Origin: Blattamonas nauphoetae
Taxonomy: Eukaryota > Preaxostyla > Oxymonadida
Direction of reading: 5' to 3'
Assembly (NCBI GenBank): GCA_033064195.1
Contig: JARBJD010000159.1
Coordinates: 1-64,000 of the forward strand
Length of the DNA stretch: 64,000 bases
The notes under the pieces were generated by a model, which saw only the letters and a list, made by a program, of their open reading frames with translations, was not told the origin of the DNA and did no database searches. Shown in pieces: positions 1,584 through 50,732 of this stretch (the first letter of the stretch is position 1; every line of letters begins with the position of its first letter). Both the position numbers and the translations under genes were made by a program.

Positions 1584-3213
1584 CAGTGACTCCTAATTCC
1601 TACTTATTCCTAATGCTCGTCACGTCATGTCATATTCTTCAGTCGCGGTTTCTAGAAAAAGTAGAAAGAGAGGAATCAAGAAACTTTGTGAATTGAAGGA
1701 CTTCACTCCGAAGAGTCTTCACCGTCAGAATCAACGTCTGAGGTGGAATCGGTCATTGTCAATCGACCAAACGACTTTGTTTTTCTTTTTTGTGTTACTC
1801 TTCTCCCTGGAGCAGCTGATAAGAAAGCTTCCACGTCCGCAATTTTGGAGTTGTCAGCAAACACTTCAGGTAAGAGTGAACCTTGGGGGGGTTCTTTGGA
1901 GCTGTCTCTGAGGATTCCGCCTCGCCCAAATGCCTGTTTGATCGTCTCCTTACAGCAGGTCTTGTTGATTGCTGATTCTGAGAGAAAAATCAAATGCTCC
2001 ATAGTGTCGTGATGGTCTCCTCCTCGCAAAACCTGGAAATTTTTCTTATAGGCTGCAAAAATACCCAAATCGAGAACTTGGAGGATGTGTGTGGTGCCAC
2101 CTGGTGGAGTGACAAGGACAATCCGATTGTCCTCCAGGCGCTTCAGTACCTCTTGAGTGACATGACTCCCACATCCGTCTGCCATGAGAAGTGCCTTCTG
2201 TCTTGGTCGATTGATGTCATCGCGAATGGAGTTCACCAATGGAATGAACACCCTGTCAATCCAATCCAACATGAGACAGGCATTCATCCCTCCAGAGTTG
2301 GAAAGGCCACAATGATAGTCAACTCCGAGGACAAGTCCTTCATTTCTAGTCTGCTCCACACTGAATGGAGGTGGGATGGCGTAGTAGGGGATGATGAGGT
2401 TGTAATCGAGAGAGATGCATGCGAGAAGCGTGAAGCGCTTCTCCGATCTGTCGACAGCCATTCGCAGTTCATTGTCGGAAACGTCTGTTGGAACAATCGC
2501 AAGTTGAGTATGAGTGTCTGACCAGGACTGATATCCCACTTCATCAATATGGAAGACGAGACAATCTGGAATACCTTTCAATGCATTCTCCAGTATTTCT
2601 GCATACTTCCGAATGTCTGAACCTTTTATTCTCATCCTTGTCTCTTCCCTAGGACGCCTTTCAACAACTTTAAGATCTTTGTGTCTTGCTAGGAAAGATT
2701 CGTACCAACTATTCACAACAATCTTCCCCTGTAGCTTGGAGGCCGCACTATTGATTTCGGTTGGGGTGAACACAAGTCTTCTCTCCCATCGGGTCTTCAC
2801 TGCCTCCACAATTTCCAATTCCTGTTTCCACGTCAACGCCATCGATTTTTTGTCAACCTGTCGTCTCACTCCATCATCATTTCGAATCTGAGAGACCAAT
2901 CCTTGAGAACATTGCATCATTTCTGACAGTTGGAGAGGTGTGATTTCCGGAATTCTTCCCTCCTTCTCCAGATTCACCAAAAAGCGTATTCCCGCTGATA
3001 CGGTTGCGAAAGATGTTTTTGAAATTGCCTCCAAGAACCAGAACGACTGCGATACTGTGCCGTTGCTGTCAACGTACTTCTTTGCTCCTACTATGGCAAC
3101 AGAAACAGGGTCGTCGCGAAGCATTACTCTTCCTTGGTTGTCGAGAAAGTCACAATTAAAGAATGACATGACATGACACGTCATTAGTCAATAGCCGGAA
3201 TTAGGAGTCACTG
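1584..3213 (-). mobile_element. Whole-looking pogo/Tc1-mariner-type DNA transposon
   Basis: The element is bounded by inverted repeats starting CAGTGACTCCTAATTCC (17 bases perfect, then about 35 bases of weaker match) and flanked on both sides by the target duplication TA (1582-1583 and 3214-3215). The related MITE copy at 6932-7751 has the uninterrupted sequence at the same place (around 7242-7246), with a single TA, so the borders are supported independently. It encodes one transposase on the minus strand that fills most of the element. With matched ends and a long open frame it could be recent. Confidence 0.85.
1703..3184 (-). CDS. pogo/Tigger-like DDE transposase
   Basis: This 493-aa protein would cut and paste its own element. 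The N-terminal third (about residues 25-165) is Lys/Arg-rich with helix-turn-helix character (PLQLSEMMQCSQGLVSQI), expected to bind the inverted repeats. The catalytic DDE_1-type core follows: the first Asp in FHIDEVGYQSWSD, the second in LLMADGCGSHVTQEVLKRL, and the third Asp in LQVLDLGIFAAYKK, which sits where pogo/Tigger proteins have PLDQGVI. The tail is Ser/Asp-rich. The ATG lies 30 bases inside one inverted repeat and the stop about 120 bases inside the other. No frameshift or internal stop is visible, so it may be active. Family assignment is from motifs only. Confidence 0.85.
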   Translation of the reverse strand: MTCHVMSFFNCDFLDNQGRVMLRDDPVSVAIVGAKKYVDSNGTVSQSFWFLEAISKTSFATVSAGIRFLVNLEKEGRIPEITPLQLSEMMQCSQGLVSQIRNDDGVRRQVDKKSMALTWKQELEIVEAVKTRWERRLVFTPTEINSAASKLQGKIVVNSWYESFLARHKDLKVVERRPREETRMRIKGSDIRKYAEILENALKGIPDCLVFHIDEVGYQSWSDTHTQLAIVPTDVSDNELRMAVDRSEKRFTLLACISLDYNLIIPYYAIPPPFSVEQTRNEGLVLGVDYHCGLSNSGGMNACLMLDWIDRVFIPLVNSIRDDINRPRQKALLMADGCGSHVTQEVLKRLEDNRIVLVTPPGGTTHILQVLDLGIFAAYKKNFQVLRGGDHHDTMEHLIFLSESAINKTCCKETIKQAFGRGGILRDSSKEPPQGSLLPEVFADNSKIADVEAFLSAAPGRRVTQKRKTKSFGRLTMTDSTSDVDSDGEDSSE

Positions 3214-35836: not shown

Positions 35837-38800
35837 TCAAAAAAATGGGGAAATGACGGGGGATTGAGCTGGAGAGGGAGTTTCTCTTTGGGCAATCACT
35901 GCGTCGAGTGCAGCAGTCTGCTTCTGTTGAGAAGCTTCAATGACAGACACAGCCTGTTCGATCTCTTCTTTGTTAATTCGTTCAACTTCCTGCCGAATCT
36001 TTGCGATGGCATGGGACTGAAGAACGGAGAAGGTTTCCTCCACAGCATCGAAGTCGTTGAGATCAGCTGCGGTGATTGTTGGCCCGACTGGGGCGAGTGT
36101 CTTCCGCCGACCGTTCTGCTTGGGACTCGGAGAGGGAGACGGAGAGTTGGAGTCCAGGTCATCAACGCCTTCGTTGACAGGGCGATCATCAAAGTCATTT
36201 TCGTCCTCTCTGTTGGTGAGGAACATCTCCTTCTCTGCTTCAGCTGCAGCAAGGCGATCTTCCTCATCTTCAGCCATCATCATTCCTCTCACCTCATCGT
36301 GTGTCTCAGAAAGCGTGTTGCTTTCAAGATCTGTGTCGCTGTCTGGCTCGGATATTTCCTGCTCGTCCACATTCAGAAGTTCCATTCCACTTCCAAATCG
36401 AGATTTGAAGATATCCGCAAGTTCGTTCTGCCCACTTGCTTTCTTCTTCCTTTTGTCTTTGTCCTTTCCTGACTTCTTCGGCTTCTGATTGGCACGCTCA
36501 CTGAGAGTCTTCTTTTTCTTGTCTTCGCGCATTCCCAGCATCCCTTCGACATCTGCCTTGTTCAACAATGATGCGTAAGTGAAGTGCCCATCACGCGTGA
36601 CAACTTGCTCCACTCTTCTCTTCCACTTCGCTCTCTCCACAATCTTCTCCTCGACAGTCCCTCTCGACACCAGTCGGTACACATTCACTTCTCTTGTCTG
36701 TCCGATTCGATGGGCTCGATCCTGCGCTTGAGCGTCCATTGCTGGATTCCAATCCGAGTCGTAGAAGATGACTGTATCGGCACCAGTGAGATTCACACCG
36801 ACACCTCCTGACCGTGTGGAGAGAAGGAAGAGGAAAACTCGACTGTCCCTGTTGAATCGTTCCATCAGTGCTTGCCTCATCTCAATTGGGGTTGTTCCAT
36901 CCAGGCGGAGGTAAGCATACCCGTAGTGTGAGGCAAAAACTTCCAACACATCCAGCATCTTCGACATTTGTGTGAAGATCAGACATCGATGCCCATTTGA
37001 GTACAGCCACCGGAGGAGAACAGCGAGACATTGGAGTTTTCCACAGTCGTGTTCAACAAGATGGGCGGGAGGGAATGTGAGCGACGTACTGGCAATGTAC
37101 GGTGCTCTTGTGTCCACAAAGGACTCGTCTGGAACGGAATTCACAGAATCAAACGCAGGAAGATCCTGAGAGAAGTGAGACATGAGTGTTGGCGACATCG
37201 AATGCGGAGCAAATGATGCCAAAGCCTTTGCACTGATCGTGTCCGGTTCGTACGGATTGAGCGGAGGAGGATTGATTGGCAATCGCACGAAGCGGATTCT
37301 TGCAGACCGAGTGGGATCTGGGCTTGACGTTGAGAGGAATGGAGAAGTGTCTGACTTCTTTATTGTCTTGCTGTTTTGTTTTGGTGTTGACGTCACACTC
37401 CGAGTCCTCTGAGCTCCAATGAACGGTGATTCTGGCTGTGGTGTGTTGACCGGAGTCGGATGGTCGTTCAGTCCCTTTCCCCGCGTTCTGATTGTGGAGA
37501 CGGTCGCGGGAATTTTGGGAGTGCCAATCTTTCTCGATGTAGTTGATGGGGTTTGGGCAGAAGCAATATGCACTGATGTCGAGTCAGAAGGCGGCTGTTG
37601 GAGTTTCCGTTGTTGACGAAGATTCAGTCCAGTGCGAGGGGCCTCAAGGACCTCATTCCAGTTGCTCAGAGCACCTTCCCTGCCTCTCATCATTTTTGAG
37701 ATACCTCCACCTGTCACTGACCAGCCACCTGCTGCGTTTTGATGCTTCGTGGCCTCGAGTGGATACAGAGACGAATAATTTGGGATGAGGACAGCCTCAA
37801 GTGGTCTGTTTTGATGAGTTGCGGGGAGTTTGGCGAATGTGGTGCTGACGAGAGGGCGAGGTGAAGAGAGCTCATCAGTCTTGAAGAGACGGCGATGTGA
37901 TTGGATGATGTGGGTGTGGATGGGTTGTGAGACGACGGTTGGCTGATAAACAAGACATTGCTTGAGTACGAAGCCAGAATACGAATAGAACAGATCGATT
38001 GGGAGCGAGACGAGATGGAGGAGAGTGTCTGTGTACCCGAACGATGCGTGTCTGACCTCATCCAGTTTATCCTTCGAATGGACGTCTGTTTGGATCAGTT
38101 TCGTGCATATTCGGGCGTGCTTATGGACAAATTGGGGGTGGATGGTGATCCCATCACGGCACAGGAGACATCCACAGCGCAGGTGAGACTTCCGAGCGGA
38201 AAACTTGCGATTCGACTCGACGTACGGACTGTACGATGAGACTTGCCTGGCTTGCTTCAATCTCTCTTCGCTTGTGAGGCGGATTTGTCCATCAAACTTC
38301 ACACTATCCTCTTTGAAGGGAGATGACAAGAACGGCGACATTCTTGTCGACCCCAATCGGAGAGGAGTGAGGAGTGGAGACGGAGTGGGAGAAAGAAAGG
38401 GCGAGTTGGAGACGGAAACACTCGGCTGAGGGTTCCGTGGAGGTCTCCCACGAGTTTCACGTCGTTGAGGGACAACAGGCTCCACTGTTACATCCTCAAC
38501 GGGTATGTCTCCCAAACCAATAATGACCTGCTGCTTCTCCCGTGTCTCTGTGACGTAGGCGTTGAACTCGGCTCGTTTCTGTCTCTTCAGTTCAAGAAGA
38601 GCGTTCTGTGAATGAAGAGAGTCGGGCTTCTCCTCGAAAAGCTGATCATCATCAACTTCGTCTTTCATCATCGTTCTTCTTCGATCGGACGGTTGTCTCG
38701 TTTTGGGTCTTCCTGCGTATGTCAGCTGGATGTCGTTTTCGAGTGGCAGAGGAACCTCTTCGGCATCCTCCTCGCTGTCTGTCGGATCGAGTGTGAGGCC

Positions 38801-41800
38801 GCCCATCAGTCGACATATCAGACGGAAGCCGAGGAGAGGAGCGGTTGTCAGAGGATCACAGCGCTGAGTGTTCAGATGCATCACGTCAAGGATATGTTCA
38901 GTTAGAACCTTCTCCTGTCGTTCCCGCAGTTCAGAAAGGAAAGAATTTGTGGACTGGCATCGAATGACGGGTGTTTGCTGTTGGTGATCACTTCGAAGAT
39001 GGATGACTCCTTCTGTGAACGTTGAGGACGGGCTGTCATCTTTCTCCATGACCTTCGGAGAGAGCTTGTAGAAGCTGTACCAGTCCTCAGGCTTCGGAGT
39101 GAGCGATGTGATCCTTTCGGCTTCAATTGGAGATGGGGGAAGATTGGACGATCCTGGAAGTGAGAGAGGCGAGTGGATTGGTGAGAAGGCGTTGATCTGT
39201 CCCACATCACGGCTTGTGATGGACATCAGAGCCCAGATGCGAGGGAGAGATGCAGTGTACGGGAGAGAAAGACTCGAACGAAGTGTTATGGATGTGTTGG
39301 TCTGAGTGGTGAATGACGGTGTCGGAAATATTTGAGGTGGAGAGAGAGTGATGAACGACGATGGGATGATGGACTGCAGAGCAAGCGATGGATTGAAGAG
39401 TGACCAGCCAGGCGACCCAACAAACGCAGGCTGTTGGATGGACACGTCTTGATGTGAGCGAGCTTCGTAAAATTCACTCAGGAGCCATCGCATGGAGTTG
39501 ATGGGGAATGTGGATGGTTGGAGGGTGAGAGTGGGCTGGTCGAGGGGGAGATGTGGGAAGCCAAGGAAGAGCTGAGGTGCATACGAATGGAGACAGTGGA
39601 TTGGATGAGCGTCAAGAATGTGAAATGCGCAGGATGGGTACGAGCCAACCTCCTCCTTCTGAAGTGCAATCTCTGAGACAGTGCGTCGTTCGTGTTTCTT
39701 CCTCACTGGCGAGAGAGGCTTTGATTGGACAAAGACAGAGGATAGCGAGAGAGGAGAGGAGATGGGGTTTTCTTCGAAGAGGGTGGGATGGTTGCACACT
39801 TTCCTGAGTTGCATAAGCACATTGCACAATCCCATGAAGCTGCCCGACTTCAGCGTCTTCTGAGTTTCTGCGGCCGACAGAAATTCTTCATAGAGGAGCC
39901 TTTGCCGTTTCGACAATGGTGTGAGAATGACGTGCTCGTGCTTCGCCGGAAGTTGCTTCTCCACGTCAACTTTCAACCGTCGCAGGAGGAACGGACGGAG
40001 GATGTTGTGCAGACGTGACACGATCTCGTTTGGAATGGTTGAGGGTGTGCTGGTGTCGGCAAGACCTTCTCGATTCACATAGCCGTCTCCAGTGATTGTC
40101 TCAACGGAGATGGAGTTGGAGATTGGATTTGCAAACCATTCTTTGAACTCGGAATGGGATCGGAAGACTTCAGGCATCAGAAAGTGCATGAACGACCACA
40201 GTTCCATGATGTCGTTTTGGAGAGGAGTTCCGGTGAGGAGCAACCGATGGCGGGTGTTGAAATTGAGCAGGATCTGCCACCGCTTCGACTTGAAGTTCTT
40301 GATGTTGTGGGCCTCGTCGAGGATCATGTAGTTCCACCTCTTCGGGCGGAAGATCTGCTTGTCTTGTATGACCAGCTTGTACGACGTGATACAGACATGG
40401 AATGCGTCTGGCTTGGACCAGCCTTCTCTCTTCTTCTTCCGCTCTGCAGTTGTGCCGTAGTACGAAAGGATCTTGAAGGCCGGGCACCATCGCTTGAACT
40501 CCATCTCCCAGTTGATGAGGACAGACGACGGAACGATGATGAGGTGAGGACCCCACTCGTTCTTTTGGCAGGCGAGGGCGGCAAGGACGGCGATGGTCAT
40601 GACAGTGTTGTGGGTGACGATGAAGGATGAGGTGATGTAAAGTTGAGATGGATGCGAGACGCTGATGCAGACACATTCAGAAATGAGGGGTTGGAGTTGT
40701 TGGGTGGTCGGTGAAGTGATGTCAGAGGAAGGAGACTGAGAGAGGAGAGGCGAGGGAGGGATAAGTGAATCTGATGGAAGCACTGTGAGCTCAGCAGTCG
40801 ATGGAAGTGGAATGATTGAGACGATTGATCTTTTGAGACGAGCACCTTCATCTGTCTGACTTCCTCCGCCCACAACATTCTGTCGGATCTGCGATGGGAG
40901 GCTGATGTCGAGTTGGATGCCATGCTGTGATGCTAATCGATGAACAACACCACCAAGAGACTGTACGAGGTGGATGAGTGAGTTCGCTGCTGAGGAAGAG
41001 AGTGTGGAGATGCGAATGGAGGCGTCTGTGGGATGTGTTGATGGGGAGTGATGATGAATAATCTGTCTCAATATTTCAGTTCGAGTCTGAATATCCGAGA
41101 AAAGAAGAGATTCTGGAAGAACAAATGAAGATTGTGAGAGATCGAGTGATGATAAAGAAGTCTGAGTGCTTTGAGAGGAAGAGAAATGGATTGGTTGGGC
41201 GATTGGGAGACGAATTGACGATGAGTTCGTGCTGAGAAGGCCGATGAGTTCCCGTGTCGTTTTTGTGCTCCATTTCTCCGCCTCTGTCGAAACCCACGTT
41301 GAGCTGTTCCCCTTGTCATTGTCGAGCTGTACTGTCCAAAGATGCTCGTCTGTGCAATCTGCCCACGTTCCATCGTCGAGCACAACGCGGAAGACTTCTT
41401 TCCTTCCCTGTGGAAAGACTCCCGTCACGCTCGTCGTGCTCCCATCACACGCCACAACCTGATCTCCCACGCGTATGTCGCCGATCCTCCTCCACCCGCT
41501 TGGGGTGAGGATGGGGGAGTCGACTGGCTGTGCTTTCCCAAGACCCATCTCATCTGCGAGGATCACGTTGAGATTCTTTTCGTACATGTTCATCAGCCAG
41601 TCCAGCCCAATCATTTGATACTCGCGCAGAGGTCCAGGACCCTTCAGCAGGAATGGGATTTCAGTTTTGATCTCGGTGGATGCGAGAGTCGTTCCGGTGG
41701 GTGCCATCGACGTGGCTTGTTTCGAGACGTCCATCAAAAGTTGGTCCATTGGCTTCTCAGCCTCATTCCTCAACTCATCAAGCTCATTAGCATCTCGCCG

Positions 41801-42728
41801 AGCATCAAATTCTTCAGATGAGTCAATTCCATCTTCGTCAGGCTTGATAGAATCAAGATGCTGAGATGATTTTGCTGGAGTGGACACATCCTCAATGCTA
41901 TCTTTGATAATTCGGCTAAGATCCTCCATCTGTTCCACAAATGTATCAAAACTCTCCTTTTTCACTTCGCGGATCTTTTCCTCCTTCTCAATCAGGTGTC
42001 GGAGACTCACGAATTCTCTCGCGTCATCCCAGAATTGTTTGATCATTGCAGCGATAACCGAGGCTTTCTCCTTCTTTACTTCTTCCTCTTTTCGTGAACG
42101 ATATAGAAAGAAGCGAGGAACCTCAACTTTCAGTCTTTCACCTTGTCGGACGACAATTCGTCGAGTTTGTGCTTTATAGTTGGCTGCGTCACAAACGTCT
42201 TGGAGAAAGGATGTTTGATCATGAATAGGGACTAAATGAAAATTGTTCTGTTCAGGCAAGTCACTAAAAGGTATTTTACCGGACGAACAAAACCATACAT
42301 CTGTTGAGGAGTTGGGGTGGCTTTTTTACGACCTCGCTTTCCTTCAGTGGATGGTTTCCCATCTGGTCTATTGATTTGCATAAATATAGCTGGAGGTTGT
42401 GGATAACTTGATTGAAGTTTTCTTTGTCGTGTCTTGATGGCTGCCATCTTGACTATGGTCTGAAGAAGATTTTGTTTTGTGAACGAAGTATGTTGTTGTT
42501 CGACTTCTGAAGAGGATGCATCTGTATAGTTGTCATCTACTCCAAGTAAAGAGAGAAAATGTGGAGGTAACGACCATCGGAAAAAAGCAAACCTCCCTCT
42601 GAATCGTCTTCATCTTCCACATTGAAAGCAAATGACTGGGAAACATGTGAAAAACGTCTTTGCTGTTGAGATGACATCGAGAAATTCTCAATTTTTGTTG
42701 AAGACCATCGATCAACCCAGATACACAT
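35837..42728 (-). CDS. SWR1: SWR1/SRCAP-type chromatin-remodelling ATPase containing an intein
   Basis: Three exons on the minus strand (42728-42575, 42536-42280, 42247-35837; introns 38 and 32 nt) encode 2273 aa, or 1964 without the intein. SWR1-family enzymes exchange H2A for H2A.Z in nucleosomes. An HSA-type region lies at about 195-240 (FWDDAREFVSLRHLIEKEEK). ATPase lobe 1 starts at LREYQMIGLDWLMNMYEKNL and is cut at Walker A (DEMGLGK, residues 369-375) by the intein at 376-684. It resumes with TVMTIAVLAALA, MILDEAHNIKNFKSKRW and LLLTGTPLQNDIMELWSFMH, which match SWR1/SRCAP/Domino more closely than INO80. A very long low-complexity insertion (roughly 930-1850), typical in kind for split SWR1 ATPases, precedes lobe 2 (HRCLIFTQMSKMLDVLEVF, DRAHRIGQTREVNVYRLVS). 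It is convergent with NEMF and divergent from RPS14. Confidence 0.93.
40607..41533 (-). other. Class 3-like intein in the SWR1 Walker A motif
   Basis: This in-frame segment of 309 residues is inserted between Lys and Thr of GLGK/T. It starts AQPVDSPILTPSGWRRIGDI, a block-A motif with Ala instead of Cys/Ser. Block B contains CTDEHLWTVQ (His64, Trp66). Block F reads ECVCISVSHPSQLYI (Cys289), and block G ends SSFIVTHN with Thr307, His308, Asn309, followed by Thr as +1. Trp, Cys and Thr at these places form the WCT triplet that defines class 3 inteins, in which the block-F Cys replaces the missing N-terminal nucleophile. The middle keeps a piece resembling the second half of a LAGLIDADG endonuclease (LSSSAANSLIHLVQSLGGVV), but no DTDG-type acidic motif is visible. 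It is coding, not an intron: the frame is open throughout and there are no suitable splice borders. Confidence 0.92.
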
Positions 42729-42901: not shown

Positions 42902-43753
42902 ATGGTTTGGGTTCTACGATTGTTATTCGACTCTAATCTTCCCCCTCCATATTCAATTGTCTCTTTTTTCATCATAGACCGCTGCTCCAGCAACCAAAGG
43001 AAAGGCAAAGAAAGGAGAGAAGAAAGTTCAGGAAGTCATCTCATCAATCCCTGATCTCAAGGTATATCACTTTTTTAATGACCTAATAACATTGACTTTG
43101 CACATTGTTCTTCATTTTCTGTCAGCCTGGTGAGAACAGATTCGGCGTTTGCCACATCTACGCTTCATTCAACGATACCTTCATTCACGTTACTGATCTC
43201 TCCGGACGTGAAACTATCTGCCGTATCACCGGTTTGATTCTCTTCTCAACCATCATGAGAATCAATTCATCCATTTTAATCGTTTTTTCGTGTGTAGGAG
43301 GCATGAAAGTTAAGGCCGATCGTGACGAGTCCTCACCATACGCCGCTATGATGGCCGCCCAAGATGTCGTTTCTGAGTATGATTTCACTTTTCTCGTCAG
43401 ACTTTCAATCATTTATCTCGTCACGTTTACACAATTTTCACAAAAAATATTCCTGTTCAAAACTTCCATCTTTTCCTTCATTGCATCTATCAATCGCTTC
43501 CCACCAACATTTTTTCTTTTCCTAATATATCATTTTTACATTGTTCAGATGCCAAAAGAAAAACATCAACTGCCTTCACATCAAAATCCGTGGAGTTGGT
43601 GGAACTCGTGCCAAGACTCCAGGACCAGGTGCCTCTGCCGCTCTCCGTGCTCTTGCTCGTGGTGGTATTCGTATTGGCAGGATTGAAGACGTGACTCCAA
43701 TTCCAACCGATTCCACAAGAAAGAAGGGTAGCAGAAGAGGTCGTCGTTTGTAA
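42902..43753 (+). CDS. RPS14: 40S ribosomal protein uS11 (RPS14)
   Basis: Five exons (42902-42904, 42978-43061, 43126-43231, 43298-43376, 43549-43753) with GT-AG introns of 73, 64, 66 and 172 nt sum to 159 codons, 158 aa. Exon 1 is only the ATG. The protein reads [20 protein letters not shown], then [20 protein letters not shown] and the highly conserved end [20 protein letters not shown]. uS11 sits on the platform of the small subunit near the mRNA exit. Its introns are longer than those of most neighbours, a pattern often seen in ribosomal protein genes. Two AATAAA-like hexamers follow the stop at about 43807-43818. Confidence 0.97.
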
Positions 43754-43889
43754 GAATACTTGCATATTCATGCGACCTTTTCATGGAAAGGGCATTTCGA
43801 GTAATCAATAAAAAATAAATTCAATTTTTGAGCGGATTATTACGTTCACTAAGAACAATTCAGAGATAACCAAAAGTTTTCTTTTCACG

Positions 43890-46800
43890 ATGGAATCGTC
43901 CGAAGAGGACGAGCTACCTTCTGAAAAAGAATCTTCTTCATCAAAGTCCCATGATACAACATCTTTCTTGGAAGAAACACCCCATTTCCCCATCCTTCTC
44001 CCTCCCGACCCGCGAACAATTGGAATCTCACATTCTCAGATGCTCTACGACCTTCATACAAATCATCAACCACAAATCTGGACAGACTATACAATGAATC
44101 ATGCCTTGGATTTGCAGGCAGCTGGTAACGGATATCCAGAAAGAACCCTGCTCGTAAATATCGCACTCTCTCCAGAGAATGATTCTCAAATTCAATCTCT
44201 CATTAAAGAAGGTCTCTCATTACACGCATCACTCTTTGTGGATGGTAAACCATTTTCAAGAGTGGTATCTCTTCCCCTCAATACACAGAAGTCATTTCAA
44301 AGAACATACAATATTGCTTTTATGGAGTTTTCTCGCTTCAATTTTTCGTCTCTTTCGAAGAATACACATTCACGAGCGTCGAAATTTCAAATATTGTTTT
44401 CCGTGACCTCACAGTATCGCTCGTGTTCATGTCCACTCGCAACAAACTCCGTTCCATTCATCCTAGCTGATCCAAAATACGATAAAACTCCAACAACAGA
44501 TGATAATTCCATGCTTATCTTTGGACATTCATATGTTTCACAATTCTCTCTGTCAGCTACCCGAAAGGAAAGGATTAACATTCCGGGTTCATCTCATGCT
44601 TCAACGACCCTTTCAACGAATCCACTTCATCTGTCAATAACAATAACGCCTACAAGATCCACACCACAGCCATTTCATGAACTTCTATCAAATTCTGTTT
44701 CAGATAATTCGCGTCTGGCCAAGACTCACTTTGTTGCTTCGTCAATTGTCCTTTCTCCACAAGCAATCAAAACGATGTCATCGGACACATATGATTCTAC
44801 CCTCATCCTCTCATTGAACGCCTCATTCTTCTCAGCTATCATCAGGGCCGCTCTCGAACAAGAAGAGAACCATCGCTTGTTCCGCGCAGCAGGCTACCCC
44901 ACCCACACCGTCCACAACACCCTCAGCAGCAGCACCCCTTCCACGGTGTCCAAGCCTTTTGCGAATCTTTTCACTTCACCCTTCATTGTCGTCGTTCATG
45001 TTGTCGGCGCCTCTGGAATTGGTCTCCCAGGCCAGTCTCGCCTCCTGTTCTGTTCGCATCAACACTCGCTCCTTCTGGACGGGCTCTGCTCGCCACAGCC
45101 ACCTGTTTCGTTCACCCTCCCTTCCCTCACCGACAACGCCCTTCATCTCCTCTTCTGTTTCCACTCGTCAATGGCCGATCCCATCCGCACCACAAACCAA
45201 CTTCCTCCCCCAACAGACTCCTTCGCCCATTGCTTCTTCCCAATCTTCTCCCAGCAATCCATCACTCGCCTCTCTGACGGGTACCTCCTTCGCATCTATC
45301 CCAACCCGCCCCCTGTCCCCCGCCCTCCTCCTTCCGGTTTTGTTTTGGGGGCTTCGCAAGAAGAGGTCGACCACACGCAAGATCCTCTGTGGTCCGAACG
45401 CGTGTACGAGATCGAAAGGCCCGTCGCAGGCTCAACACGCTCCAAACCAGGCACATCACCCTCACAGTCACTTCAATCTCCGTTCCACTCGACGTCCTCC
45501 CTCCAACGGGCAGTCGTCGAGACAGAGCCTGTCCATCTGAAGACATCCAACGTTCGGACCATCCCACAAATCCGAAGACCAGAAGTGTTCGAGGATATGT
45601 CGGCAGAGAAAGACGATGATTCGGAGGAGCATGCAAAGCCGCTCATCCCTTTCTACATCCTCTCTCGACCCATCACGACGCCGGACGAGGATGCATTCTG
45701 CGACATCACTCTTCCCATCACGTTCACCTGCTCGAGCCTCACAACAGTCAGCTCGCCGTCCGTCTCCGTTCTGATTGAGCCAGCCCTCACTGGATTGTAC
45801 GACATCCCACAAATCGACACCGAGATAGCGCAGATCATGACGCAGAAGATATCCCGCCAGTCGTCAGTGACCATCCAACTCAACAGTGAGTTGCTCCTCC
45901 ACTCCGAAACCATCTTCACCACACTCTCCGTCTACCTCCAACAGAAAACACAGAGGTCAACAACTCTCTCCAGCTCGCCTCAATTGCCTGTGAAATCCAT
46001 CGCAGACGTCTCCTCTGAACGACCCTTCATATCCTTCCTCTGCCATCTGTTCATCCTCCACTCGCTCAACGGACTCCCACTTCCAGTCGCAGCCATCAAC
46101 CATTCACTCCTCACGTTTGTTCTCCGGACTGCAATCGGCATTCTGAAGACCCTCCATTCTGACGACAGCCAGCTCCTCTGCGACTATCTCCTTCCTGCGT
46201 CACATGTCATCATTTCTACGTACTTCGCTTCTCTCTCGCCAGAGTCCCTCCAGAGAGGCGTCGACACGTACCTCGGCAACACAGAGCATCTCGTTCCTGC
46301 TCTTTCGAAGGACGGGGCGACACGAACACTTCTCGACACTCCGCTCAATCAAATCGCAGGCCAAACCCTGACGGACACACTTGATCCCAGCACTGTCGAT
46401 CCGCAAGATGTGTCGGACATGATCCGATCCGCAGCCTCTCTCTGGCATTACTGCGTGGAGCAAGTGATCAGCGGGGGGACCAGCTTGGATGACGACCCCC
46501 TCCCGTTTGTGACAAATGGGTGTGTCTCTTTCATTTCAACGATGCTCTCCACTTCTGGGCCACTCCTCATCATCCTCCAATCCGAACGCAGGAGGGACCA
46601 GGAGACAGAATTCTTTGGACAGACTTTGGGACGCGGGGGGATCTTCACGCTGAATGACGACAACGTCGGAGTCGACCTCGACGATGACATCAGCGAGGTC
46701 CTTGCAATCAGCTCGAAACGGGAAGATTTGTTTGAGTCAGCAACTCTCCTTGTCGGATCGGTGTATTCCACTTCACACCATTCTTTTGAACAGATTCAAC

Positions 46801-49800
46801 TGTCTCTTCTCGGCACGTCCTGCGAACTCCTCCACAACTACGTTCAGAACGACAACCACCCACTTCACCACAACGCAGTTCTCCATTCCCTCATCGTCCT
46901 CACCTCTTCCTTCCTTCCGAAGATCTTTGCGAACGAATCCCGGCTCCTCGTCAGTCACATCCAAGTTTCTGTTCTCATCGATGCTTTCAAGCACTGCTTT
47001 TCTCTAATTTCGTCGATCCTTGTTGTGATCTGCACAGAGAGTTCTGTGATCTCGATCCCTCTTCTTCTGGCTGTGACCTCTTTCTTCGCAATCGGCTGTG
47101 CCACTGAGTGCCGCCTGTTCTCGACGTCCTTCACCCATTTCGAGAACCAGCAGTCTGCTCTCTCATCGTTCATCAACACCTTCTTCTACTCCCTCGCAAC
47201 AATCGCTTCCATCCCACTCGCTGTGTCAGCGAAACACAATCAGAGTGACCTCTCACCCGAGTCCGATGTCCTGCTCTCCTCGTTCACTTTCCTCTTCTCT
47301 TCGCTGATGAACTCTGCCAATTCTCTCTTCTCTCTTCTTCACATCTTCCTGAAATCATCACACAATACAATCTGGCGATTTCTCATCCAATCCGTCGCAT
47401 GCATCCTCACCTCACCCATCCTCACTTCACTCCCTCCACCCCCAACACAACCCTCAAACACACTTCCACAGCTTCTCACGAACAATCTCACCACATCCGA
47501 TATCCTCCTCTCTTCCCCGCAGTTCTGCTCTCTTCTTCAGAAAGAATGGCAGAACAACATTGTCCAGACCACCCTTTCCATCCTCACGTCGGCCCTTCTC
47601 TTCATCGTCCCCGTTTCAAGCGGGCCAGCGTACACCACATTCACTCTCCTGCTGATGATCTGCATCAACACTCCGCCAACACTCGTCCCGCATCTCAAAC
47701 AGATCCAATCAATTTTGGCGCTCTGTTTCCAGTCCGAACACATCCACAACAAGTCCTTCTCTCGCTTTGGACGGGAGATCATCAGTGTCATCATTGCCCT
47801 CGCTGACCGAGAGAAGAAGAAGCTCGACCAAATCAACAAAACAAAGAAAGGGACAACAGCCAAAGCTCCTGGTGTCAAGGTTCTCCTCCAACCCGGCCGA
47901 AAGGTCTGCAGCAAAACAGAATGGGTAACAGCGGTGACAGGAAACATCAGCGGGGTGTCATTTAACGACGACCTCAGAAAACTCAGGTCACTTCTTCTGT
48001 CTCTTCCGACACTGTTGGAGGAGCTTGGCCGGAATGTTCAATCGATAAAGGAGGATTGGTCAGAAAGATTGAAACGGGAAGAGAACTCAATCGTTCAAGA
48101 GGAAGAAAGCGACCTCGCATCAGAAACTGCTCTGTCGTCGCGTCTGAAACAAGTGATGGTTCAGAACACTCCAACGACGAGGGAAACACTCACCTCTGAA
48201 GCCGAACCCGACGACTCCCTCCTCACAACATCAACGATGCACCTGATCTTCGGCGAACACACACTCGAATCGTTCAAGAACGACCTCCAAGGTCTCGTAG
48301 TCTCTCTGTTCCTCTACGATGCCATCCATCCCTTCACGTTCCTCATCCAGCCCCTCACCTCCTCACAGCTTGCCATCACATCAACAACCACAACGACAAC
48401 CACAAAGGCACAGCCCATCCAGTCAAATCCACTCGCCGCACTCCGATCTCGTCCAAAGGCCGTCAAAACTGTTCAAAAGCCCAAACTCCAAATCACCGAC
48501 GAAGGCGACGTGGAGAGCAGCCTGTTCAGCTTCTTCGCGTGCCAAGGGGGGACTGAGGCGGAGCTTGCTGACAGCCTCTGCAAAATTGTGCAGATGTGTG
48601 TGAAGTTTGACGACAAACGGTGCCTCGACTATGCCGAGGCTCTGATGGGGTTGTACGAGATGCTGGACAACACCAGCAGTGGCGAGATCCCAGTCTCGAT
48701 CATCAAGCGGATTGTTCCCATCCGCCGTGAAATCGGGTTCATTGAGCTGAAACGATTGGAGATGCTGACACGTCTGAAACACAAAAAGGAAGAGACTCGA
48801 AAGGACACTTTGGAGCTCTTCTGTTTCAACGGAGATCTGAACCGGACGGTCAAGCTTTCGCAGATTCAGAACTTGGCCTTCCCGTTCATGACCGCCCTCG
48901 AGGCATCAACGATCATCCTCCCCAAGTCACTCGACATCGCTCGGAAAGCCATCTTTGACGAACGGCAGCGAGCAATCGAGGAACAAGACGTCCCGTTCGC
49001 AGCAGACACACCCAGCCTGCGGGGTGTTCAGTCACAACCATCACCAGGACCATTCGCAGCACTTCAGACTCCAATGACACCAGCTCCAACCAACATCTTC
49101 CTCCCACTCTTCAAGAAGATCAGCGACACATTCTCAAAAGCGAGACAGTGCGAGCGTGCGATGTGGATGGAGTCAAACTGGATTCGAATCCAACCCAAAA
49201 CAGATCATGAATCCGGCGCTCTCAACGTGAAGATTCTGGCCAATTTGCGGCAACTTGCATTCGAAGTGAGGTTTTCGTCATGCTTCTATCCCCGCTTTGT
49301 TCTTGCACGGTTCTACAGAGTGTGCGAAGGGAGGGAAGAGTGCCCAAATGGGTATGTGATCGACAGCTCCGTTCAACAGATGATGGCAACATCTGCGACA
49401 ACGACTCCGTGCCGGGGTGCTCCTACAGTCTCGGACTTCCCTCCACCTCAGCAGCCTTTCTCGAAGCCTCCCCACACTCACCTCATCTCGTCCTTCGTGT
49501 ACACTCTGCAGTACGGCGTGTCGGCCAATCTTTTCAGGAAGCAGATTGAGAAGAAGTGTCCTGGCGTTGATGTTGTGGTCAACGACGAACCACTTCCAGA
49601 CCTGCCCGGATCCTCAGCCATCATCCGGCTGAACTCTGTCTGGCCGAACAAGTTGAACCAACTTCCCGGGAACATCTTCGAACGCTACGAAGACCCAATC
49701 ACGATCCTTCCCTCTCGAAGCCCGCAGCCAATGCCTCATCTGACCGATCCGTCCTCAGCAGGTCTCCGGGAGAATCTGGAAGCCGCCCAGTACGACAAAG

Positions 49801-50732
49801 AATACACATCGTTCACAGGCTACCATCTCATTGACGACCACCTTGTCGCGCAAAACCAGGCCTTCACTCGAGACATGACGCAACTCCCTCCGATCGTCGG
49901 CTCGCCCACAAGTTTGTCTGTTTCTGGTGGGCATCATGGGTCTCCAGCATCTGTCCATTCTCAGATAGACACGCCACTCTCAAAGGCCAACCCAGAAATG
50001 GGACCGCCCTTTCCTGAACCAAAGCGGCAGTACCGTCGAGTGCAGTTGTCAACCCAGCGCCCGCTGCCTGGATGCCACCTCAGAGAGAACGTGGCCGATT
50101 GGGAGTGGGACGTCGTCAACGTTGAGCAGTTTTGGAAAGAGACGCTCGAACGATTTGCACTCCGCCTGTTTGCCATCTGGCGAGTTGGGATGGAGCGACT
50201 GAACATGGATCAGTCGGGTCGTCTGAAGAAAGACCTCAAAATTGAGTCGATGGAGAAAGTGGAGACTGTTGAGAAGGGCGAAATCATCGCTCTGTTTGAA
50301 GACATGCTGTATACGGTTGGGAACGAAAAGCCGTTCGCTGATCTGTCCAAGGCTGTGCGGGAGTACTGGTCGAAGCTCAACACGATCAATGCCATCATCC
50401 AGGGCGAAATCCCAGCTACTCTTGAAACGGATCCAGTTCAAAATGAAGAAACGATTCAGCAGGGGCAGACGGAAGATGATCAGGATCGAGACAGCGTCGA
50501 ATTGATGGATCAACGGAAAGTCCAGTTCAGCATCAAACGTGGAGGTCAACTGTGGACAGAAATTGCATCCAGATTCATCGTTCTTCTCGAAACATCAAAC
50601 AAAGTGCTGGATATGCTCGATAGCAACGAGACACTGATGATTGAGGAGAGACAGAAAGTTTCTTATTACACATCATGCATCAACTCACTCTGTGAGCTCA
50701 TGCCACTCTTGCAGGACATTATAGGTGCTTGA
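43890..50732 (+). CDS. DOCK-family-like guanine nucleotide exchange factor, 2280 aa
   Basis: One uninterrupted exon of 6.8 kb. The N-terminal part (about 80-190) resembles a C2/DHR-1 domain: PERTLLVNIALSPE and HASLFVDGKPFSRVVSLPL. The middle is long, helical and Ser/Thr-rich. The C-terminal part (about 1640-2280) is DHR-2-like. It includes FKKISDTFSKARQCERAMWM, then FEVRFSSCFYPRFVLARFYR, where DOCK proteins have a YYFRVAFYG strand, then KQIEKKCPGVDVVVNDEPLP. YRRVQLSTQRPLPGCHLREN corresponds to the TERTTLxTEHPFPGxLRW block, followed by a closing helical bundle. DOCK proteins activate Rac/Cdc42 at membranes to drive actin remodelling. Similarity is weak, with big insertions. Domain order and length support the call, but I am only moderately sure. 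Confidence 0.6.
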   Translation: MESSEEDELPSEKESSSSKSHDTTSFLEETPHFPILLPPDPRTIGISHSQMLYDLHTNHQPQIWTDYTMNHALDLQAAGNGYPERTLLVNIALSPENDSQIQSLIKEGLSLHASLFVDGKPFSRVVSLPLNTQKSFQRTYNIAFMEFSRFNFSSLSKNTHSRASKFQILFSVTSQYRSCSCPLATNSVPFILADPKYDKTPTTDDNSMLIFGHSYVSQFSLSATRKERINIPGSSHASTTLSTNPLHLSITITPTRSTPQPFHELLSNSVSDNSRLAKTHFVASSIVLSPQAIKTMSSDTYDSTLILSLNASFFSAIIRAALEQEENHRLFRAAGYPTHTVHNTLSSSTPSTVSKPFANLFTSPFIVVVHVVGASGIGLPGQSRLLFCSHQHSLLLDGLCSPQPPVSFTLPSLTDNALHLLFCFHSSMADPIRTTNQLPPPTDSFAHCFFPIFSQQSITRLSDGYLLRIYPNPPPVPRPPPSGFVLGASQEEVDHTQDPLWSERVYEIERPVAGSTRSKPGTSPSQSLQSPFHSTSSLQRAVVETEPVHLKTSNVRTIPQIRRPEVFEDMSAEKDDDSEEHAKPLIPFYILSRPITTPDEDAFCDITLPITFTCSSLTTVSSPSVSVLIEPALTGLYDIPQIDTEIAQIMTQKISRQSSVTIQLNSELLLHSETIFTTLSVYLQQKTQRSTTLSSSPQLPVKSIADVSSERPFISFLCHLFILHSLNGLPLPVAAINHSLLTFVLRTAIGILKTLHSDDSQLLCDYLLPASHVIISTYFASLSPESLQRGVDTYLGNTEHLVPALSKDGATRTLLDTPLNQIAGQTLTDTLDPSTVDPQDVSDMIRSAASLWHYCVEQVISGGTSLDDDPLPFVTNGCVSFISTMLSTSGPLLIILQSERRRDQETEFFGQTLGRGGIFTLNDDNVGVDLDDDISEVLAISSKREDLFESATLLVGSVYSTSHHSFEQIQLSLLGTSCELLHNYVQNDNHPLHHNAVLHSLIVLTSSFLPKIFANESRLLVSHIQVSVLIDAFKHCFSLISSILVVICTESSVISIPLLLAVTSFFAIGCATECRLFSTSFTHFENQQSALSSFINTFFYSLATIASIPLAVSAKHNQSDLSPESDVLLSSFTFLFSSLMNSANSLFSLLHIFLKSSHNTIWRFLIQSVACILTSPILTSLPPPPTQPSNTLPQLLTNNLTTSDILLSSPQFCSLLQKEWQNNIVQTTLSILTSALLFIVPVSSGPAYTTFTLLLMICINTPPTLVPHLKQIQSILALCFQSEHIHNKSFSRFGREIISVIIALADREKKKLDQINKTKKGTTAKAPGVKVLLQPGRKVCSKTEWVTAVTGNISGVSFNDDLRKLRSLLLSLPTLLEELGRNVQSIKEDWSERLKREENSIVQEEESDLASETALSSRLKQVMVQNTPTTRETLTSEAEPDDSLLTTSTMHLIFGEHTLESFKNDLQGLVVSLFLYDAIHPFTFLIQPLTSSQLAITSTTTTTTTKAQPIQSNPLAALRSRPKAVKTVQKPKLQITDEGDVESSLFSFFACQGGTEAELADSLCKIVQMCVKFDDKRCLDYAEALMGLYEMLDNTSSGEIPVSIIKRIVPIRREIGFIELKRLEMLTRLKHKKEETRKDTLELFCFNGDLNRTVKLSQIQNLAFPFMTALEASTIILPKSLDIARKAIFDERQRAIEEQDVPFAADTPSLRGVQSQPSPGPFAALQTPMTPAPTNIFLPLFKKISDTFSKARQCERAMWMESNWIRIQPKTDHESGALNVKILANLRQLAFEVRFSSCFYPRFVLARFYRVCEGREECPNGYVIDSSVQQMMATSATTTPCRGAPTVSDFPPPQQPFSKPPHTHLISSFVYTLQYGVSANLFRKQIEKKCPGVDVVVNDEPLPDLPGSSAIIRLNSVWPNKLNQLPGNIFERYEDPITILPSRSPQPMPHLTDPSSAGLRENLEAAQYDKEYTSFTGYHLIDDHLVAQNQAFTRDMTQLPPIVGSPTSLSVSGGHHGSPASVHSQIDTPLSKANPEMGPPFPEPKRQYRRVQLSTQRPLPGCHLRENVADWEWDVVNVEQFWKETLERFALRLFAIWRVGMERLNMDQSGRLKKDLKIESMEKVETVEKGEIIALFEDMLYTVGNEKPFADLSKAVREYWSKLNTINAIIQGEIPATLETDPVQNEETIQQGQTEDDQDRDSVELMDQRKVQFSIKRGGQLWTEIASRFIVLLETSNKVLDMLDSNETLMIEERQKVSYYTSCINSLCELMPLLQDIIGA

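Follow-up and report, generated by a model that had tools for sequence, protein, structure and literature searches.

A class 3-type intein in the Walker A motif of the SWR1 ATPase of Blattamonas nauphoetae and at the same site of five further SNF2 genes

What becomes of a chromatin-remodelling ATPase whose ATP-binding loop is interrupted by 309 in-frame codons? The question is raised by the SWR1 gene in the window analysed here, the first 64,000 nucleotides of contig JARBJD010000159.1 of the oxymonad Blattamonas nauphoetae, whose genome has been published (PMC10703272). The insert (41533..40607, minus strand) parts EMGLGK from TVMTIAVLAAL, between the Lys and the Thr of the Walker A motif. We consider it highly probable that this is a class 3 intein which splices itself out of the SWR1 protein, has lost its endonuclease and has five SNF2 relatives at the same site.

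The insert in the SWR1 Walker A motif

The frame of the insert is free of stops over all 309 codons, and the remaining five frames of the same stretch contain 3 to 19 stops. It lies within a minus-strand open frame of 2140 residues (42259..35837). Among the best 120 of 7600 relatives of the host, one of which is the protein itself, DEMGLGK|T is unbroken in all 119 others, and the segment is therefore an insertion. Its N-terminal part matched solved inteins by sequence (6riz, expectation value (E) 4.3e-10; 6bs8, E 1e-6), and tblastn matched the insert to 444 of 50,697 phage records. These matches, together with the retention of the segment in the deposited gene model, uphold the proposal of an original prediction, made from the nucleotide letters, that the insert is an intein; the coordinates, length and catalytic residues given there were found unchanged in the minus-strand frame. 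Pfam matches of the insert fell far under their cut-offs (Hom_end_hint, 16.6 bits vs 32.1) and NCBIfam models gave no match to it. Library models alone would leave the intein unnoticed. Its parts are as follows.

40607..41533, minus strand: class 3-type intein, 309 residues between the Walker A Lys and Thr, replacing nothing
41312..41533, minus strand: N-terminal splicing part, blocks A and B (residues 1-74), with Ala1, TDEH at 61-64 and Trp66
40868..41200, minus strand: LAGLIDADG endonuclease relic, second half only, with helices and an RSLGG-like turn (~residues 112-222, limits approximate)
40694..40855, minus strand: linker rich in Ser, Pro and Gln (residues 227-280), of low confidence (predicted local distance difference test score <50)
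40607..40690, minus strand: C-terminal splicing part, blocks F and G (residues 282-309), with Cys289 and Thr307-His308-Asn309
40604..40606, minus strand: +1 Thr codon, the host Walker A Thr and expected branch-point nucleophile by analogy with PMC6195587

The flanks of the insert form a SNF2/Helicase_C ATPase (PF00176, E 1.7e-76; PF00271, E 2.1e-25; Pfam). The joined translation of exon 1 and the long exon is identical to the deposited B. nauphoetae 'putative Helicase domino' (P0002; 100% identity with the query region), and the deposited gene model was reproduced letter for letter with one 35-nt GT-AG intron taken out and the 927 bases of the insert kept as coding. Among the best 120 of 7600 matches, the named proteins are mostly SRCAP, domino, PIE1 and swr1, one plant row bears the name INO80 and many rows are unnamed; identity is 63-66% over 44% in most rows, and no oxymonad orthologue other than that of Blattamonas is among them. 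The gap between the ATPase lobes is long, with the SNF2 part ending at residue 826 and Helicase_C starting at residue 1741 of the open frame. A long insertion at this place is a mark of the INO80/SWR1 group. With SWR1 orthologues among the closest relatives listed, we assign the host to the SWR1/SRCAP/domino ATPases. The 88.3 Mb assembly has SWR1 in single copy; the best place after it is BRM (42%).

35837..42381, minus strand: SWR1/domino gene, exon 1 with ATG at 42381, long exon to the stop at 35837; PF00176 and PF00271
42264..42298, minus strand: spliceosomal intron of the SWR1 gene, 35 nt, GT-AG
41534..41620, minus strand: host SNF2 domain up to the Walker A Lys (profile positions 1-30)
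39782..40606, minus strand: remainder of the host SNF2 domain, beyond the intein (profile positions 31-289)

Splicing residues and class

Class 3 inteins are defined by Trp B:12, Cys F:4 and Thr G:5, need no nucleophile at position 1 and are followed by Ser or Thr at +1 (PMC5222942). The SWR1 intein has the complete Trp/Cys/Thr (WCT) triplet in Trp66 (B:12), Cys289 (F:4) and Thr307 (G:5), bearing out the class 3 signature originally proposed. It begins with Ala1, as do all six intact copies in the genome (described below), and also has Thr61-x-x-His64 with His64 at B:10, His308 (G:6), Asn309 (G:7) and Thr+1; its predicted structure has the HINT splicing fold. Ala1, His64, Trp66, Cys289, Thr307, His308, Asn309 and Thr+1 are invariant in all 37 rows of an alignment chosen for full-length in-frame matches (the window, 33 of 78 IMG/VR loci and 3 of 5 genome loci). 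A profile of the SWR1-intein family itself, which yields a biased set, gathered 269 intein candidates; 223 of these start with Ala, THN closes 268, and the insertion site is GK|T in 195.

Membership in class 1 was rejected, Ala1 standing where Cys, Ser or Thr is required. Class 2, in which Cys+1 attacks directly (PMC7765530), was rejected as well: the +1 residue is Thr, and the block F Cys and Trp B:12 are present. A tree with class 1, 2 and 3 inteins had been suggested as a check. From 287 inteins collected, 253 passed a score filter and 217 were left after removal of near-copies; from these we drew 87 rows (the 9 rows closest to each focus row, 30 taken at random, named phages and class 1). 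In the resulting tree (109 columns, no class 2 row), the SWR1 intein stands apart from class 1, with five class 1 inteins from two bacterial genomes splitting from all other rows at 99/97 on very long branches; note that the program placed a later Trp of the class 1 rows under B:12.

Six occupied SNF2 genes and the relatives of their inteins

The locus is not a lone case in its genome. Whole-genome searches queried with three of the six inteins, the window's included, gave six intact copies: in SWR1, SNF21/BRM (contig C71), a further SNF2 ATPase (C13) and three CHD genes (C72, C223 and C334). The Walker A site is the same in every copy, GLGK|AQP...THN|T, and the six have in common Ala1, His, Trp, Cys, Thr, His and Asn; identity of the other five with the SWR1 intein is 33-38%. 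GLGKT or GLGKS is uninterrupted in nine or more further SNF2 places of the genome; one more place is a damaged duplicate, and on C7 no Walker A was seen at the SNF2 place. Beyond the SNF2 genes these three queries gave no match better than E 0.09, the weak extra matches ranging from E 0.09 to 0.87. PF14890 and TIGR01445 had no match in the genome; both also miss the six known copies, and other intein types are possible. With PF14528 there were just 14 matches, all under the cut-off and most of them from a single repeated frame of 69 residues. This frame (14 places; L186-L195 and others) has a sub-cut-off LAGLIDADG_3 match of E 1.56-1.73 and is more likely a repeat than an endonuclease.

On C334, two places have broken CHD copies that retain pieces of the intein. 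The pieces (275217-275570, 276760-276870, 680567-680704 and 683596-683715; L007, L009, L129, L132, L134 and L137) are ~90% identical to the intact copy on that contig. In the deposited Blattamonas SNF21 model (P0032), armadillo repeat, SNF2 ATPase and thioesterase domains occur together; it is perhaps a fused gene model.

In pairwise comparison of the CHD inteins, the splicing blocks are 77, 70 and 68% identical and the middle parts 50, 39 and 41%; the host C-exteins are 70, 69 and 63% identical. The ratio of non-synonymous to synonymous rates (dN/dS) is 0.11, 0.14 and 0.20 for the splicing blocks and 0.12 and 0.13 for the host C-exteins of the two computable pairs, these values being rough with synonymous sites near saturation. 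We read this pattern as purifying selection on splicing. Since synonymous divergence is similar in intein and host, the intein would be as old as the CHD duplications.

Aligned with relatives of ~340-370 residues, all six Blattamonas inteins lack the region of the first LAGLIDADG motif, and in all six the second endonuclease half is degenerate and ends in an RSLGG-like turn. Pfam gave no LAGLIDADG match in the SWR1 protein (P0001). A homing intein of this type requires two motifs with acidic residues, and the six were rejected as such. Judged from the alignment, the homing endonuclease is gone and mobility with it. Half losses of a similar kind are seen in phage EL and in some uncultured rows, and the loss in the six need not go back to a shared derived event.

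An intein of this type in a chromatin remodeller had been presented as new. It is not the first on record in a eukaryote: the BRM of Anaeramoeba flamelloides (P0042), a eukaryotic SNF2 remodeller deposited as intein-containing, reads EMGLGK|AQP...LTHN|T and has the Trp/Cys/Thr triplet. The acidic residues of both its endonuclease motifs are gone in the alignment and the endonuclease is apparently degenerate; this BRM intein differs in belonging to another metamonad lineage and in keeping more of the endonuclease length. By these residues, class-3-type SNF2 inteins occur in at least two metamonad lineages. A paper on Anaeramoeba inteins (PNAS 2023) reportedly gives dozens per genome and could list more of these host families. 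SNF2 inteins of Hymenobacter (P0073, P0079 and P0113) have the same site (DMGLGK|AQP...THN|T), Ala1 and the block F Cys, but differ in their length of ~347 residues, a LAGLIDADG_3 match and a bacterial host. The class 3 intein of Deinococcus radiodurans Snf2, said to have been described by Brace et al. in 2010, is bacterial with a SNF2-family ATPase as host, as here. The M. smegmatis DnaB intein 1 (DnaBi1; 6bs8, PMC6195587) is likewise of class 3 and in a P-loop, but has a bacterial replicative helicase as host, Ser at +1, DxxH in place of TxxH and ~139 residues. Known nuclear intein hosts comprise PRP8, VMA1, GLT, CHS, RNA polymerase, ThrRS and eIF5B (PMC5784728); these inteins are likewise nuclear-encoded in conserved proteins, in other hosts and at other sites. 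In the main text of that survey, 'class 3' and 'SNF2' each occur 0 times.

Where did these inteins come from? Their relatives lie in phage helicases, terminases and PhoH-like proteins and in bacterial SNF2 proteins. No donor was found, the nearest rows (phage, IMG/VR and bacterial proteins) being 50-58% identical in the splicing blocks. The donor originally suggested, a helicase of a phage or large DNA virus, is only one option; bacterial SNF2 inteins (for example Hymenobacter) are as close. No clear compositional mark of transfer was seen in the G+C content at third codon positions (intein 0.505, N-extein 0.463, next 900 bases 0.703, rest 0.531). One protein, P0007, is primase-helicase-like and has two short class-3-type inteins in one P-loop (residues 541-688 and 694-842), with five residues (SGTGK) between them.

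A full-length tree (73 of the 87 rows, class 1 and long phage rows dropped) unites all Blattamonas inteins except that of SWR1 in a clade at 99/93, a result compatible with a single entry, later movement among SNF2 genes and gene duplication in the CHD branch. The SWR1 intein may share the origin of these five or may represent a second entry. A separate entry from a bacterium or phage, independent of the other five, is quite possible, though somewhat less likely than not. The SWR1 intein falls outside the five in the full-length tree and in a FastTree of 217 rows, where it groups with viral and uncultured rows (support 0.855-0.95), and its splicing blocks reach 58% identity with non-Blattamonas rows vs 44-51% with the Blattamonas copies. 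However, all six come together, with weak support, in the 87-row tree (25/72; 28% of 200 bootstrap trees), and the approximately unbiased (AU) test is compatible with one clade of six (p 0.527), the constrained tree scoring 2.45 higher; six plus Anaeramoeba was not rejected either (p 0.318; score 12.11 lower). The position of the SWR1 intein is unsure, given long branches and an odd composition.

Splicing, alternative readings and meaning

The scheme proposed here, for an intein of the type that phages and bacteria spread in P-loop ATPases, starts from the observed residues and site and the predicted fold, and takes every chemical step from what is known of the class. With its Walker A interrupted, the precursor would not bind ATP properly before the intein has removed itself. 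Cys289 would attack the Lys-Ala1 junction to give a branched ester at block F, and the N-extein would then be transferred to the +1 Thr. Cyclisation of Asn309, assisted by His308, would release the intein, and the joined host would regain GLGKT. Thus, Thr+1 would serve splicing first and ATP-Mg binding afterwards as the Walker A Thr, much as the P-loop serine of M. smegmatis DnaBi1 doubles in both roles (PMC6195587). The intein would be immobile and yet retained in SWR1, since exact removal seldom happens and an inexact one destroys the ATPase.

Several alternative readings were weighed. The fold is common to all intein classes, with PI-SceI giving the top Z in the fold comparison of the SWR1 intein, and TxxH, present here, is described as generally absent from class 3 (PMC6195587). 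Both would suit a class 1 intein that lost its Cys1 and resembles class 3 superficially, which we regard as very improbable: the complete WCT triplet with a Ser/Thr-type +1 residue argues against it, the nearest sequences also start with Ala (in the biased set of candidates above), class 1 rows lie outside in the 87-row tree, and some class-3-type relatives have TxxH (Thr at position 61 in 8 of 37 rows, its own included, otherwise mostly Cys). The real 35-nt intron of the SWR1 gene gives a precedent for removal of the 927-base segment as RNA. Next to no credence attaches to this, since the junctions GGGAAA|GCACAG...CACAAC|ACTGTC lack GT..AG, no in-frame GT..AG pair lies within 30 nt, and the 309 open codons, the protein homology and the deposited model argue against it; a spliceosomal intron was rejected on these grounds. 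The culture was polyxenic and decontamination was needed (PMC10703272), but bacterial contamination or a misjoined contig is hardly conceivable and was likewise rejected: the intein shares an open frame with a eukaryotic SWR1 protein, six copies lie on different contigs or places, and the contig neighbours are eukaryotic (HSP70, CFAP65/HYDIN-like, UFD1, tubulin-tyrosine ligase and a kinase) and contain introns. These neighbours and the SNF2/Helicase_C domains also agree with the nuclear SWR1-type host claimed at the outset.

More weight, although it is still decidedly unlikely, goes to an intein kept by descent that cleaves or stays in place, with a SWR1 gene that is dead or independent of ATP. 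Splicing of the SWR1 intein is deduced from its class, the same genome has broken intein-bearing CHD copies on C334, and over the first 118 codons the broken CHD copy L007 has 12 non-synonymous and 9 synonymous codon differences from L006, which is intact, as would be seen without constraint. On the other side, the splicing residues are complete in all six intact copies, the CHD splicing blocks are conserved as strongly as the host, and the ATPase frame of SWR1 is otherwise intact. Working splicing is the simplest reading, because SWR1 is single copy and its P-loop is broken if the protein stays unspliced.

Elsewhere in the window, an open frame at 1706-3184 (minus strand) has a DDE_1 transposase-type match (E 5.1e-15), and an open frame of 2280 residues at 43890-50729 (plus strand) has no Pfam match at E 0.001. 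A short intron-bearing gene at ~42979-43754 (plus strand) is ribosomal protein S14-like, as judged by eye from the sequence alone.

B. nauphoetae is an anaerobe without a mitochondrion. A further idea is that the endonuclease-less class 3 inteins of SWR1, BRM, the three CHD genes and the further SNF2 gene form a shared redox gate on remodellers: the block F Cys would tie splicing to redox, with oxygen stopping maturation and anoxia releasing it. If so, the inteins would owe their retention to function as well as to the difficulty of loss. Oxidative stress does block splicing of the mycobacterial DnaB class 3 P-loop intein (PMC6195587). However, Cys F:4 is the only cysteine common to all six inteins, so the disulphide trap of DnaB is not conserved as such, and SNF2 genes of the same genome are unoccupied. 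Both facts weigh against the gate, which we consider very unlikely.

Class 3 inteins in bacterial SNF2 proteins and in a eukaryotic BRM are already on record. Within the open-licence literature, we found no paper combining intein and Blattamonas, and the titles and abstracts listed on class 3, nuclear, SNF2/SWR1, chromatin-remodelling and oxymonad inteins contained no report of these inteins. As far as these searches go, SWR1 and CHD intein hosts in an oxymonad are new, as is the presence of endonuclease-less inteins at one and the same site in six genes.

In conclusion, class 3 inteins, so far treated as belonging to phages and bacteria, occupy one codon position in six nuclear chromatin ATPases of a single protist. 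One genome could thereby address how inteins move between non-allelic nuclear genes and whether retention without homing reflects function or difficulty of loss, with the nine or more unoccupied SNF2 sites as a built-in control. Protein splicing is probably a requirement for working chromatin remodellers in this cell; if the inteins do splice, at least three remodeller types (SWR1, SWI/SNF and CHD) would need it for their P-loop.
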